Source: Xanthomarina spongicola (GTDB lineage: Bacteria > Bacteroidota > Bacteroidia > Flavobacteriales > Flavobacteriaceae). Taken from it: a DNA stretch of 64,000 nucleotides. Location of the stretch: contig NZ_QGGP01000009.1 in the NCBI RefSeq assembly GCF_003148645.1, forward strand, positions 1 through 64,000, read 5' to 3'. The notes beneath the pieces were generated by a model. The model ran no database searches, was not told the DNA's origin, and saw only the letters and a list, made by a program, of their open reading frames with translations. Positions 23,739 to 29,495 of this stretch are shown piece after piece. A program made the position numbers and the translations under genes. Position 1 is the stretch's first letter; the number at the start of each line of letters is the position of its first letter.

Positions 23739-24272
23739 TTAATTGATATTTACAGTAAATCCAAGATTAAAAGATCCATAATAGAAATAATCATCACTAA
23801 TACCAATATAATTAGCATTTAATTGAAGAGTTTCGTTTATATTAAATCCAACCATAGGTCTCCAATAAAATCCTCCTGTATAATAATCATTATTATATAA
23901 ATCTTTTGCACTCGACACTGAAATAGCATAACCAATATCTGCACCAAACACTAATTTTTCATTAGCACTAAATCTTGCTGCTCCAGCAACTGGAACATAT
24001 TGATAGTCTGGTGTCTCAAAGTTCCCTATTATTGGACCTACATAATAGCTATCACCTATAGCCTGACCATAACCTGTTGCTATACCTAAATCGAAAGCTG
24101 AATTAACTTCAAATAAATAATTAATATCACCATTAAAAGCAAAAGAAAAATCATAACCTTCATAGTTTTCATAAGGGAAACCTATACTTCCTCCAATATT
24201 TAAACCAGATTGCGCAAATGATAATACACTAAACATAAGTGCTGTTACTGTTGTAATAATTAGTTTTTTCAT
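23739..24272 (-). CDS. Outer-membrane beta-barrel protein
   Basis: 177 residues with a signal peptide (1-20, ending LSFAQ). The mature part alternates polar and aromatic residues in about eight strands, contains many Tyr-rich turns (for example YENYEGYDF, SAKDLYNNDYYTGGFYWRP) and ends in an aromatic last strand (NLGFTVNIN). It resembles small porin-family barrels of Bacteroidota with unknown ligand. It has its own terminator and is the third of three neighbouring barrel genes, showing weak similarity in design to the one at 24337-24927 (FYWRPMVGFNI versus FYARPKFGFDL). Confidence 0.8.
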   Translation of the reverse strand: MKKLIITTVTALMFSVLSFAQSGLNIGGSIGFPYENYEGYDFSFAFNGDINYLFEVNSAFDLGIATGYGQAIGDSYYVGPIIGNFETPDYQYVPVAGAARFSANEKLVFGADIGYAISVSSAKDLYNNDYYTGGFYWRPMVGFNINETLQLNANYIGISDDYFYYGSFNLGFTVNIN

Positions 24273-24290
24273 TTTAAAAAATTTTAAATT

Positions 24291-24320
24291 AAAAAGGCAA
24301 TGTATGAGTATTGCCCTTTT
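24291..24320 (-). terminator. Terminator after the second barrel gene
   Basis: Stem GGCAAT (24295-24300 plus T) with ATTGCC (24310-24315) flanked by A and T runs, with one extra C on the right arm. Confidence 0.7.
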
Positions 24321-24336
24321 TTATTTTATTATAAAT

Positions 24337-24927
24337 TTAGAATCCGTATTCAACACCAAAGTTGAATGAATTGAAACCACTTGAAGTTACAATTGTGTTA
24401 TTCCCATTACCATTATTTACGTGCTTGTAGTCTGTACCACCAGAAATACTTTGATAAGAAGCTATTAAAGCAATTGGCCCTAAATCAAAACCAAATTTTG
24501 GTCTTGCATAAAAACCAGTTTTAGCATCTCCAGAAACATTAATACCAACACCTAAATCTAATCCTCCAAAAAACTTATCATCTGCAAAATAGTATCTTGC
24601 TGTTGCTGCTACTGGAATAAAAGAAGCATCTTTATAATTAGTAATTAAAACATTCCCATTATTAGTATAAGAATAACTTCCATCTCCAATATAATGAGTA
24701 TAACCAATCAATCCGCCAAGTTCTAAATTATCAATTAACTCAAACAAATAAGCTACATCAAAACCAAAATTGAAAGAAGACACATCACTAGAAGTACTTA
24801 ATGGTAAACCAATATTAGCACCAGCATAAAAACTACCTGACTTAGCTTTTTCAATAACCTCATCTTGAGCATTTATTGAATTAAATCCGAAAACTGCAAT
24901 TGCAGTCAATAATATTATTTTTTTCAT
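24337..24927 (-). CDS. Outer-membrane beta-barrel protein
   Basis: 196 residues with a signal peptide (1-20, ending NSINAQ). A barrel-type alternation follows, with GSFYAGANIGLPL at the start of the mature region, PVAATARYYFADDKFFGGLDLG in the middle and an aromatic end (FNFGVEYGF). It is probably a paralogue of the 177-residue protein next to it: both have a 'PVA.AARF/ATARYYF..K.FGGADIG'-like central strand. No ligand or function can be named. Confidence 0.82.
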   Translation of the reverse strand: MKKIILLTAIAVFGFNSINAQDEVIEKAKSGSFYAGANIGLPLSTSSDVSSFNFGFDVAYLFELIDNLELGGLIGYTHYIGDGSYSYTNNGNVLITNYKDASFIPVAATARYYFADDKFFGGLDLGVGINVSGDAKTGFYARPKFGFDLGPIALIASYQSISGGTDYKHVNNGNGNNTIVTSSGFNSFNFGVEYGF

Positions 24928-25019
24928 TGTAATTAATTTTGTTTGAAATTTCGTGCAAAGATAAACAATCCTAAATTCTAACTTAACAAAAGCTTATTCA
25001 TTTTTTATTATAAAAAAAA

Positions 25020-25038
25020 CCGAAGTTATTAACTTCGG
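25020..25038 (-). terminator. Terminator after the first barrel gene
   Basis: Stem CCGAAGTT (25020-25027) with AACTTCGG (25031-25038), followed by a run of eight T on the minus strand. Its core is similar to that of the terminator at 23691. Confidence 0.8.
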
Positions 25039-25067
25039 CTTTTCTAGCTATTAAAATCAATTACTAA

Positions 25068-25748
25068 TTAAAACATGTATCCTACTGAAAGTTGGAATAC
25101 ACGATTTTTTCTTGAAAATGAATAATTATCATAATAACTTTCATCATCATAATAACCTGTATCATCCACTTCGCTTAATCCAAAGCAATAACGTGCTTGG
25201 AAGAAAACACCCATATCTAATTTATAACCAACACCAATGTTCATAGAAAAATCTACTCCTTTAACTGAATCTTTAACATCTCTATCACCAGAAACATTAT
25301 CTTCTGGAAAATCTGAATCAGTATATTCATAATCTTCGTTAGCAGATAATAAGAATCCAACTTGAGGACCAGCTTCAACGCTTAAATTTTCAATTGGGAA
25401 AAATTTTGCCATAACTGGAAGATTTAAATAACTTAAATTAACATTAGATTCTTCTCTTTCTGACCCATAACTATATTCAGTTTTAAAACCTTGTGATGAA
25501 TACAATATTTCTGGTTGGATTGCAAATTTTTCTGAAATCATTATTTCTGCAAGACCACCAACATGGAAACCAACTCTTGATTTAACATTATCGGTAGCAT
25601 CACCTTCATAATAATCGTAATAATTACCAAAATCACCACCTATTGTGGCTACGTTCATACCAGCTTTAGCACCAAAACTAACATTTTGAGCATTCATGCT
25701 AGTAAATCCGAAAACTGCAATTGCAGCTGTTAATAATACTTTTTTCAT
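25068..25748 (-). CDS. PorT-family outer-membrane beta-barrel protein
   Basis: 226 residues with a signal peptide (1-20, ending TSMNAQ) nearly identical in wording to the neighbouring barrel. The mature start VSFGAKAGMNVATIGGDFG and the motifs SRVGFHVGGLAEIMISEKFAIQPE (in two parts), LPVMAKFFP and LSVEAGPQVGFLLSA are characteristic of the porin-family/outer membrane beta-barrel (OMP_b-brl_2, PorT-like) proteins of Bacteroidota. It ends in an aromatic strand (LSVGYMF). It has acidic Tyr/Asp-rich loops. Function unknown; single-gene unit. Confidence 0.85.
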   Translation of the reverse strand: MKKVLLTAAIAVFGFTSMNAQNVSFGAKAGMNVATIGGDFGNYYDYYEGDATDNVKSRVGFHVGGLAEIMISEKFAIQPEILYSSQGFKTEYSYGSEREESNVNLSYLNLPVMAKFFPIENLSVEAGPQVGFLLSANEDYEYTDSDFPEDNVSGDRDVKDSVKGVDFSMNIGVGYKLDMGVFFQARYCFGLSEVDDTGYYDDESYYDNYSFSRKNRVFQLSVGYMF

Positions 25749-26913: not shown

Positions 26914-28488
26914 CTATTTTGCTATGTTAACTGCTCTAGTTTCTCTAATTACAGTTACTTTAACTTGTCCAGGATACGTCATGTCTGTTTGAATCTTTTG
27001 AGAAATATTAAACGATAAATCTGCAGCATTTTGATCTGATACTTTTTCGCTTTCAACAATGACTCTTAATTCTCTTCCTGCTTGAATGGCATATGCTTTT
27101 TTAACTCCTCCAAAACCAAAAGCTATATCTTCTAAATCTTTTAAACGTTGTATATAACTATCTAATACTTGGCGTCTAGCTCCAGGACGTGCACCAGAAA
27201 TGGCATCACATACTTGAACAATAGGAGATAAAAGAGACGTCATTTCTATTTCATCATGATGCGCTCCAATTGCATTACATACTTCATCTTTTTCACCATA
27301 TTTTTCAGCCCATTGCATCCCTAAAATAGCGTGTGGAGTTTCCATATCTGCTTCTGCATCTGGCACTTTACCAATATCATGTAATAATCCAGCACGTTTT
27401 GCTAATTTTGGGTTTAAGCCTAATTCGGCAGCCATGACACCACAAAGTTTAGCAACTTCTCTTGAGTGCTGTAATAAATTTTGACCGTAAGACGAACGAT
27501 ATTTCATTCTACCAACCACCTTAATAAGTTCTGGATGAAGATTATGAATACCTAAATCGATAATGGTACGTTTACCAACTTCAATTATTTCCTGCTCAAT
27601 TTGTTTGGTAGTCTTTTTAACAACTTCTTCAATTCTAGCAGGATGTATTCTACCATCTGTTACTAATTTATGTAAAGAAAGTCTAGCTATTTCACGTCTA
27701 ACAGAATCGAAACAAGATAATATAATAGCTTCTGGCGTATCATCAACTATAATTTCTACTCCAGTTGCAGCTTCAATTGCTCGAATATTTCTTCCTTCTC
27801 TACCAATAATACGTCCTTTAACATCGTCAGATTCAATATTAAAAACAGATACGCAATTATCTACAGCTTCTTCTGTTCCTATACGTTGAATGGTATTTAT
27901 AATTACTTTTCTAGCTTCTTGTTGTGCAGTAAGTTTTGCTTCTTCTAAAGTGTTTTGAACATAAGCCATAGCATCATTTTTAGCTTCACCTTTTAAAGAT
28001 TCTACTAATTGCGATTTAGCTTCTTCGGCAGACAAACTAGAAATTACTTCTAGCTGTTCTATTTGGCTTTTATGAAGCCTGTCTATTTCTACTTGTTTTT
28101 TAGAGAGAATATCGGCTCGATGGTTATAGTCTTTTATTTTATCTTCTAAACTTTGATTAAGTTTTGCGTTTTTAGATAATTCACTTGAAACCTGAGACTC
28201 TTTATCTCTAGTACGTTTTTCGGCTTCAGCCATTTTCTTATCTCTAGACATGATAACTTTTTCATGTTCAGATTTTAATTCAATAAACTTTTCTTTTGCT
28301 TGAAGTATTTTATCTTTTTTAATGCTTTCTCCTTCACTGTTTGCTTCTTTAAGGATAGCTGCAGCAGATTTTTTAGCACTTTTTATAAGTTTGGAAGCAT
28401 TGTTTCTTTCTAATGCTTTTGCTATGATGAATCCTATAATGATTCCTAGCAATACGCCTCCAATAGTTAATATAATTGAGTTGTCCAT
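26914..28488 (-). CDS. rny: Ribonuclease Y
   Basis: 524 residues. The N-terminal membrane anchor (about 1-22, [19 protein letters not shown]) is followed by a long coiled coil (about 30-190), a KH RNA-binding domain around residue 220-270 ([19 protein letters not shown]) and an HD phosphodiesterase domain (about 335-430, with [11 protein letters not shown] near 369). RNase Y starts mRNA decay at the membrane. It is downstream of zapA on the same strand, with the 6S RNA candidate in the 233-base gap. Confidence 0.97.
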
Positions 28489-28508
28489 TTTAGTTGATTT
28501 ATATATAT

Positions 28509-28695
28509 AAAAAAAGCCTACACTAGTTGTTGTTTTGATCTAAACTCCTTAAAACAAGTTTAGGGCTAACAAACTGATCAAGTATCTGCTCGAGATACTG
28601 AAATTAATCAGCACTAGCAGCTCGCTTTTACAGTCTAAACTCACCCTTTTTAAAGAAGTAATGTTGAGTTTTCCAAAAAATTAACTAATGTAGGC
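28509..28695 (-). ncRNA. ssrS: Probable 6S RNA
   Basis: Non-coding stretch between zapA and rny whose ends pair: on the minus strand the 5' GCCTACATTAGTT (28695-28683) matches the 3' AACTAGTGTAGGC (28528-28516) over 13 bp with one G-U. The 3' end runs into seven T. The total is about 180 nt, as for 6S RNA. Inside are a hairpin TCTAAACT/AGTTTAG (about 28540-28563) and an apical hairpin AGTATCT/AGATACT (about 28583-28601) within a longer CTGAT/AATCAG stem, with unpaired flanks in the middle. 6S RNA binds the housekeeping RNA polymerase holoenzyme as a mimic of open promoter DNA. The position after zapA is the same as in proteobacteria. Identification is by structure, size and synteny, not by a covariance search. 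Confidence 0.78.
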
Positions 28696-28721
28696 AGTAA
28701 CCTTATTTATTTTAAAGAACG

Positions 28722-29015
28722 TTAAGAGTTTAAATGTACTTGTAACAAGTTGTTTAAAGCCGTTAGCTTTTCTTCAACATGTTCACTTACATTTTCTTTA
28801 TCTATAGTTTTTTGTTCTACTTGAGATGCAAATTGTAAAGCACACATGGCTAATACATCTTGTTTATCTCTCACAGAATAACTTTGCTCAAATTGATTAA
28901 TCATGGTTTCAATGTTCTTAGCTGCTTTTCGTAACCCTTCTTCCTGACTAGGCTGAATAGTTAAAGGGTAAACTCTATTGGCTATTGAAAGCTTTATTTT
29001 AAGCTTATCTGACAT
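28722..29015 (-). CDS. zapA: Cell division protein ZapA
   Basis: 97 residues. ZapA crosslinks FtsZ filaments. It shows LKIKLSIANRVYPLTIQPSQEEGLRKAAKNI (N-terminal strand-loop-helix; read in parts), followed by a second helix with VRDKQDVLAMCALQFASQ and a C-terminal coiled coil. It lies 15 bases after the coiled-coil gene at 29031-29321 and before the 6S RNA candidate, all on the minus strand. Confidence 0.93.
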   Translation of the reverse strand: MSDKLKIKLSIANRVYPLTIQPSQEEGLRKAAKNIETMINQFEQSYSVRDKQDVLAMCALQFASQVEQKTIDKENVSEHVEEKLTALNNLLQVHLNS

Positions 29016-29030
29016 TGATTCTATGTTACA

Positions 29031-29321
29031 TTATTCGGATAATTGAGCAATACAATGATCAATTTCTCTAACTAATGTGTTTATTTTAAGCTTTGTTTCT
29101 CTTTTGTTTTCGTCACTACCAAGCATTGTATTTGCAATCTTGAGTGCTTCGTATTTTTCTTCCCAAGTAACAATAGTTTCTTGTTGGGCTAGAAATTCTT
29201 GTCGAGATTTGTTTAGCTCTTGTTTTAATTTTGAATTAGTCTGGTTGACTTCTTCCATCTTAAGTAAAACACGATTAATTTTATCTTCTAGAGCATTAAC
29301 AATTTCTTCAATCTTACTCAT
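29031..29321 (-). CDS. Small coiled-coil protein paired with ZapA
   Basis: 96 residues, almost wholly helical with heptad pattern (EEIVNALEDKINRVLLKMEEVNQTN...LKQELNKSRQEFLAQQE...WEEKYEALKIANTML). It has no signal or membrane segment. It is the first gene of the unit leading to zapA. Its length, coiled coil and position suggest a ZapA-associated division factor analogous to ZapB, but this is inference from context. Confidence 0.75.
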   Translation of the reverse strand: MSKIEEIVNALEDKINRVLLKMEEVNQTNSKLKQELNKSRQEFLAQQETIVTWEEKYEALKIANTMLGSDENKRETKLKINTLVREIDHCIAQLSE

Positions 29322-29495
29322 CTACAATATTCAATACTTATTAGACAAAGTTAAGATACCTAACTTTAAATTACAATTGTTTTTACATAAAATTTACAAA
29401 TGGCTGTAATACCTTGATATTATTAACAAATATGTATGCAATATATCTTTTGTAGATTTCGTTCAAATTAATATTTTAGCAATAATTACTATTGT

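Follow-up and report, generated by a model that had tools for sequence, protein, structure and literature searches.

A 6S RNA gene of the 6S-Flavo family between zapA and rny in Xanthomarina spongicola, and the spread of the zapA-6S-rny gene order

In a 64,000-nt stretch of Xanthomarina spongicola DNA (contig NZ_QGGP01000009.1, positions 1 to 64,000; hereafter the window), the gap that separates zapA from rny holds the gene for a 6S RNA belonging to the 6S-Flavo family, located on the minus strand at 28509-28695. Taken by itself, the RNA is typical of an already known family and adds just one more 6S gene; the gene order in which it resides matters more, and the value of the analysis lies in the breadth of this order and in an operon model that is directly testable. 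In the reading favored here, to which a probability of about 85% is given, the gap holds the 6S-Flavo RNA as third unit of a zapB-zapA-6S-rny transcript, its synthesis being aided by a boxA-like site and rny being reached by read-through.

When the whole window was scanned with all Rfam families, RF01685 (6S-Flavo) gave the sole over-threshold match, at 28542-28669 on the minus strand (Infernal, 95.4 bits vs. a gathering cut-off of 85), and this is the one RF01685 match in the source genome. A sequence-only reading had proposed a 6S RNA at this place, and the minus-strand scan bears the proposal out. The RF01693 model (Bacteroidales-1) runs end-to-end along the gap RNA (28509-28692) with a sub-threshold score of 22.1 bits, its cut-off being 60, and no RF00013 match was found in 28300-28900 up to E 10. 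Adding the closing stem and the T run to the RF01685 core yields an RNA of ~187 nt, and 28509-28695 is, from sequence and structure, the likely full RNA, in line with the length near 180 nt supposed earlier. The gap had also been rightly described as devoid of ORFs: none of 50 or more aa lies inside, and a plus-strand ORF (28322-28510) only touches the edge. The RF01685 search covered 60 genomes, the source genome among them; 45 match at E 0.001 or better, 33 of them above cut-off, and the 45 include all 37 genomes of the same family; family and order denote here Flavobacteriaceae and Flavobacteriales, both putative assignments. The 6S-Flavo family was named in 2010 (Weinberg et al. 2010, PMC2864571), 6S RNA has been detected in Flavobacterium psychrophilum (PMC9723704), and 6S RNA plus pRNAs have been reported for Bacteroides thetaiotaomicron (PMC7366714).

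The minus-strand ends of the RNA, GCCTACATTAGTT (28683-28695) and AACTAGTGTAGGC (28516-28528), pair over 13 bp to form the closing stem P1, which is followed by a run of seven T (28509-28515), found also in the family alignment. Both features had been noticed in the sequence-only reading, as had inner hairpins with an unpaired center, and the fold indeed combines inner stems with a long central part that is mostly unpaired. P1 and the T run may be read as an intrinsic terminator. The minus-strand segment 28507-28697 folds at -56.3 kcal/mol (shuffled mean -37.5, z -4.8), and none of 200 shuffles is as low. Further minus-strand stems are P2, made up by AAACTC (28666-28671) and GAGTTT (28542-28547), a stem beyond the bubble, in which GGG (28644-28646) pairs with 28563-28565, and the upper stem P3, in which AGACTG (28631-28636) pairs with 28571-28576.

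Base-pair covariation among relatives, looked for in the full-length RNAs of 38 family members aligned by MAFFT (loci L038-L045, from the order and not the family, were excluded), is present. The closing stem is 97% paired across the 38 members, and 10 of its 13 pairs show double changes; these also occur at 4 of 5 pairs counted in the stem beyond the bubble, and at 5 of 6 pairs of P3. As the 3' arm of P2 was misplaced by MAFFT in part of the alignment, this stem was counted by anchors in 36 of the 38 sequences (L034 and L035 dropped; L029, perhaps L037, partly misparsed yet kept). Its six pairs are kept in 36/36 parsed sequences; nearly invariant, with one double change, P2 adds little to covariation support. 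Over the 28 adopted pairs, 97.5% of the cells pair, vs. 85.5% after shuffling and 25-46% with partners slid by 1-3 columns, a control that matters because kin sequences can beat shuffles without structure. Double changes are found in 22 of the 28 pairs (mean of 12 after shuffling), and all 500 shuffles fall short of the observed value on each of five measures. RNAalifold, run on the 38-member alignment, returned 32 pairs, 22 with double changes; its four-pair local hairpin was not adopted among the 28. The structure of the gap RNA exceeds chance over the full length. The closing stem is absent from the Rfam model, and the RNA ends are therefore an addition of the present analysis.

Studied 6S RNAs bind the housekeeping RNA polymerase like an open promoter, and are released by pRNA synthesis from the bubble. 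By analogy, the window RNA would bind the housekeeping polymerase by imitating an open promoter, and would be released when the bubble serves polymerase as template for a short pRNA. The 3' strand of the central bubble, TAAACTTG (28555-28562, minus), is one letter off the sigma-A -7 box TAnnTTTG. The form TAnnCnTG is found in 34 of 38 family members, the four others carry C at the fifth position too, and the exact TAnnTTTG is found in none of the 38. Promoter mimicry by this strand is not claimed, because its letters could pair with the downstream GAGTTTA and may serve a release hairpin.

Upstream of the RNA lies zapA (28722-29015, minus; PF05164, 73.1 bits), encoding a cell division protein, and downstream rny (26914-28488, minus), encoding RNase Y (PF12072, 111.7 bits; HD and KH), whose start codon is 20 nt past the T run. 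A small ORF upstream of zapA (29031-29321, minus) is called zapB-like by position only, no Pfam family scoring above its cut-off. By BLAST, the zapB-like ORF, zapA and rny flank 6S in all of the first 30 loci; in 18 loci from 16 genomes (L031-L048), rny was found by BLAST in 18 and zapA in 17. An iterated ZapA profile detected ZapA in 111 of the 112 loci L001-L112. On the same strand of the window, at 23739-25748, three adjacent ORFs of 177, 196 and 226 aa have signal-peptide-like starts and, by eye, the look of outer-membrane beta-barrels.

The published housekeeping -7 box of the group is TAnnTTTG (PMC7366714, PMC9723704). An exact copy, TAACTTTG, resides in the window at 29346-29353 (minus), as presumed operon promoter, and exact copies occur 604-702 nt before 6S in 46/46 Flavobacteriales loci, mostly ~25 nt before the zapB-like start. 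Other exact copies in the 750 nt before 6S amount to 8, scattered in 7 of the 46 loci with no common place, and the stretch that begins ~50 nt inside 6S and ends at the rny start has none in any of the 46. A start box directly before 6S was sought in its exact form only, and no conserved TAnnTTTG is found there; L025 and L031 carry TACATTTG 42-44 nt before 6S, and a non-consensus promoter may lie there. A sigma-70 scan for a start box before 6S gave 4 sites vs. 5.1 in shuffles, which is unsurprising in this phylum. The rny start follows the 6S T run at a median distance of 20 nt (range 11-97; 40 or less in 42/46 loci; the figure for L038 is off, its T run having not been caught). The simplest reading of this layout is that zapB-zapA-6S-rny is probably one transcript. 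It would be initiated at one sigma-A promoter before zapB, with 6S as third unit; the mature 6S would be cut or terminated out of it, and rny would be reached by read-through of the closing-stem terminator.

With its final stem and T run just 20 nt from the rny start codon, the element could also be a structured attenuator in the leader of the rny mRNA, rather than a separate RNA. This is highly improbable, given the match to a 6S family model, the 6S plan of the bubble, and the existence of 6S genes away from rny. One is found in genome G168; besides, among the zapA matches listed, 6S follows zapA in family f25 (2 genomes, no RNase Y match) and in family f34 (4 genomes, weak RNase Y matches only).

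The zapA-6S interval of the window hosts a boxA-like GTTCTTT (28714-28720, minus), one base past the zapA stop codon. Similar letters make up boxA in E. coli and Bacillus. Just past zapA, the motif GTTC[TAC]T[TAG] occurs in 39 of 46 Flavobacteriales loci, no more than 124 nt upstream of 6S (mean of 1.9 after letter shuffling; kin sequences are not independent), and is absent in 7. In other loci of the phylum it was found within 260 nt before 6S in 12 of 31 (shuffled mean 3.1), three or four of these being far from 6S and possibly due to chance, and is absent in 19. The 150 nt preceding 6S contain no boxA-like block in seven loci of other lineages or in E. coli. GTTC[TA]TT blocks, GTTCATTAACAT, GTTCATTGATAT and GTTCTTTGATGA among them, occur in the rRNA leaders of three genomes (G021, G028 and G236; two from the family, one distant), and in G021 the block before 6S, GTTCATTAAAAT, is close to the rRNA-leader block of the same genome. 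The 16S of the source genome was not found by a search that missed 16S in 5 of 8 genomes, and this is no sign of absence. The boxA-like block is a putative, likely antitermination site in flavobacteria. It would be part of the transcribed RNA, because the proposed operon places it there, and would let a Nus antitermination complex carry polymerase through the untranslated stretch between zapA and rny.

The same block could alternatively belong to a promoter of the 6S gene itself. According to this explanation, 6S has its own start just upstream, the GTTCTTTAAAATA block is an element of that promoter (perhaps for another sigma) and not boxA, and zapA and rny are mere neighbors. The position of the nearest block is fairly steady in the 39 Flavobacteriales loci, 23-43 nt before the end of the scanned stretch, as a promoter element might be. 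Moreover, the displaced 6S of G168 (L241, 1210-1374) carries a -7 box of its own; this 6S has neither zapA nor rny as neighbor, and in the family concerned the zapA-rny gap leaves no room for 6S. That one genome also counts for the shared transcript, because a 6S outside the usual place has TATATTTG just before its closing stem and lacks a boxA-like motif over the 1.2 kb upstream. Against the shared transcript, no -7 box was found upstream of the displaced 6S of G095, a weak match. Yet no exact sigma-A -7 box is conserved before 6S, as one is before zapB in 46/46 loci, in nine loci of other families the block and the 6S core are 57-133 nt apart, and similar blocks are present in rRNA leaders. 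We regard a separate 6S promoter as rather unlikely, and retain the shared transcript with its boxA-like site.

The gene order was monitored in 198 genomes of the phylum, in which ZapA was matched in 196 and the RNase Y family in 191 (159 above cut-off). Among the matches listed, 108 genomes have both zapA and rny, 107 of them on one contig; in each of these 107 judgeable genomes zapA precedes rny, both genes share a strand, and the matched parts are 80-1012 bp apart. RF00013 matched at E 0.001 or better in 24 of the 198 genomes (one above cut-off), and rny lies just downstream in all 24. RF01685 was found in 22 (10 above cut-off), and RF01693 in 3 (none above cut-off), all three between zapA and rny and all in RF01685-positive genomes. 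Forty further zapA-side regions yielded weak RF00013 matches in 7, none above cut-off. The genomes found by the three Rfam 6S models scarcely overlap; gene order brings the three to one genomic place, and so supports one RNA by descent.

A shared core was noticed by eye in most zapA-side regions, and a further model, R1, was built from 29 loci and searched genome-wide, free to match anywhere. R1 matches 116 of the 198 genomes, a count which is not independent proof of 6S identity because the training loci are zapA-side gaps of the same genomes (28 of the 29 come from the 198, and were picked for lying in such gaps). The 116 include all 24 RF00013 genomes and none of the 22 RF01685 genomes. R1 contains just 9 base pairs; the window 6S and all 19 family genomes escape it, and for this reason R1 and RF01685 were used side by side. 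A 6S match was found in 138 of the 198 genomes, and in 133 it lies beside zapA and/or rny, that is, no more than 600 bp after zapA or 900 bp before rny, on the same strand. Three genomes are not judgeable, and in two (G168 and, by a weak match, G095) 6S is elsewhere. Both neighbors are present in 86 of the 133; in 47 there is one, the other being not among the matches listed or, once, on another contig. The link of zapA to 6S had been supposed to be older or more conserved than usually shown; these figures, and the loci of other lineages described below, agree with an older and wider link.

In families f20, f21 and f22 the zapA and rny matches are 80-171 bp apart, too close to accommodate 6S. 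The gap RNAs of family f17 (L073, L074) are 6S-like by eye only, being missed by R1 and Rfam, and no 6S was found by model in the gaps of L075-L083 and L090. In L079 (G122, family f19), a GTTCTTATATAAAG block persists after zapA where no 6S was found by model, perhaps as trace of a lost 6S. In L107, L108 and L109 (families f36 and f34), the ORF downstream of zapA, after 6S in L109, resembles by eye a YmdB-type phosphoesterase. In Bacillus ymdB follows rny, and where RNase Y matches are only weak, a longer zapA-6S-rny-ymdB row may have existed before a loss of rny. Where models fail, the zapA-rny order offers a practical guide to 6S genes. In the literature searched we found neither a 6S gene between zapA and rny nor a boxA before 6S; the main 2014 survey of 6S RNAs (Wehner et al.) fell outside this scope, and the gene order may have been described earlier.

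A scan of GTDB genomes for RNase Y motifs gave at least 119 loci, 36 from Bacteroidota or Kapaibacterium and 83 from other lineages, among the matches listed. ZapA, monitored by a profile of its own at E up to 0.01, was found upstream of rny (1.2 kb or less, same strand) in 9 of the 83 among the matches listed; six of these nine proteins were put to Pfam, and all six match PF05164. In seven of the nine loci, belonging to five other lineages among the matches listed, a same-strand RF00013 match above cut-off separates zapA from rny: Desulfobacterales L123 (67.7 bits), Desulfobulbaceae L158 (66.6), Smithella L161 (91.7), Nitrospinaceae L185 (89.7), Rokubacteria L138 (85.5), Thermoanaerobaculia L131 (72.3) and Eisenbacteria L174 (52.4). 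No such match was found in L183 and L190. In L131 and L138 the start of the longest rny ORF overlaps 6S, and has probably been called too early. None of nine Bacteroidota-group loci in the same Rfam scan reached a cut-off; R1 matches between zapA and rny in L192 (E 1.3e-6) and L175 (E 4.9e-5), Bacteroidota loci outside the R1 training set.

In L185, zapA, 6S, a gene for 5-formyltetrahydrofolate cyclo-ligase (PF01812, 116.7 bits; ygfA) and rny follow in a row. In E. coli, ssrS follows zapA on the same strand, and fau, also encoding 5-formyltetrahydrofolate cyclo-ligase, is downstream. L185 unites both arrangements, because the gene between 6S and rny is of the same kind as E. coli fau. Tentatively, and at slightly less than even odds, we suggest that an ancient zapA-6S-(ygfA)-rny operon predates the split of Bacteroidota, Acidobacteriota, Desulfobacterota and relatives, and that E. 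coli zapA-ssrS-fau and flavobacterial zapB-zapA-6S-rny are its remnants. A polymerase-binding RNA would be taken from a cell-division mRNA, in flavobacteria with the help of boxA, and RNase Y level would be set by read-through of the 6S terminator.

Repeated emergence of the zapA-6S-rny adjacency by chance, rather than by descent, would fit the displaced 6S of two phylum genomes and the lack of an upstream zapA in 74 of the 83 non-Bacteroidota motif loci among the matches listed, a number to be read knowing that some loci are cut by contig or locus ends and that not all are proved RNase Y. Of the 9 other-lineage loci in which zapA precedes rny, 7 have a 6S between the two genes in the shared orientation, and in a single locus the cyclo-ligase gene completes the row; these facts make such a coincidence improbable. 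If the ancient operon is true, cell division, global transcription and RNA decay were tied to one promoter. If the shared transcript and the role of boxA are true, they would explain why 6S is next to zapA in such distant bacteria, and predict a direct link of 6S production to RNase Y level.

Compared to RF01685, the window RNA is alike in the model match above cut-off, in the conserved core letters and in phylum; the Rfam model covers 108 positions and the inner stems only, and closing stem, P2 and T run have been added here. Likeness to RF01693, the Bacteroidales-1 RNA for which the Rfam description suggests a 6S-Bacteroidales RNA, is weak, extends end-to-end, and stays below cut-off (22.1 vs. 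60 bits). The classical 6S plan consists of closing stem, central bubble and upper stem. The window RNA has the same plan as RF00013/SsrS, and E. coli ssrS is also located after zapA; in contrast, the window RNA has no RF00013 match, and the downstream gene is fau in E. coli, rny in the window. In beta- and gammaproteobacteria, zapA has been described beside 6S, in zapB-zapA-ssrS-(FAU1)-EVE arrays (PMC7641849); zapA is directly before 6S in these arrays as in the window, in which the downstream gene is rny.
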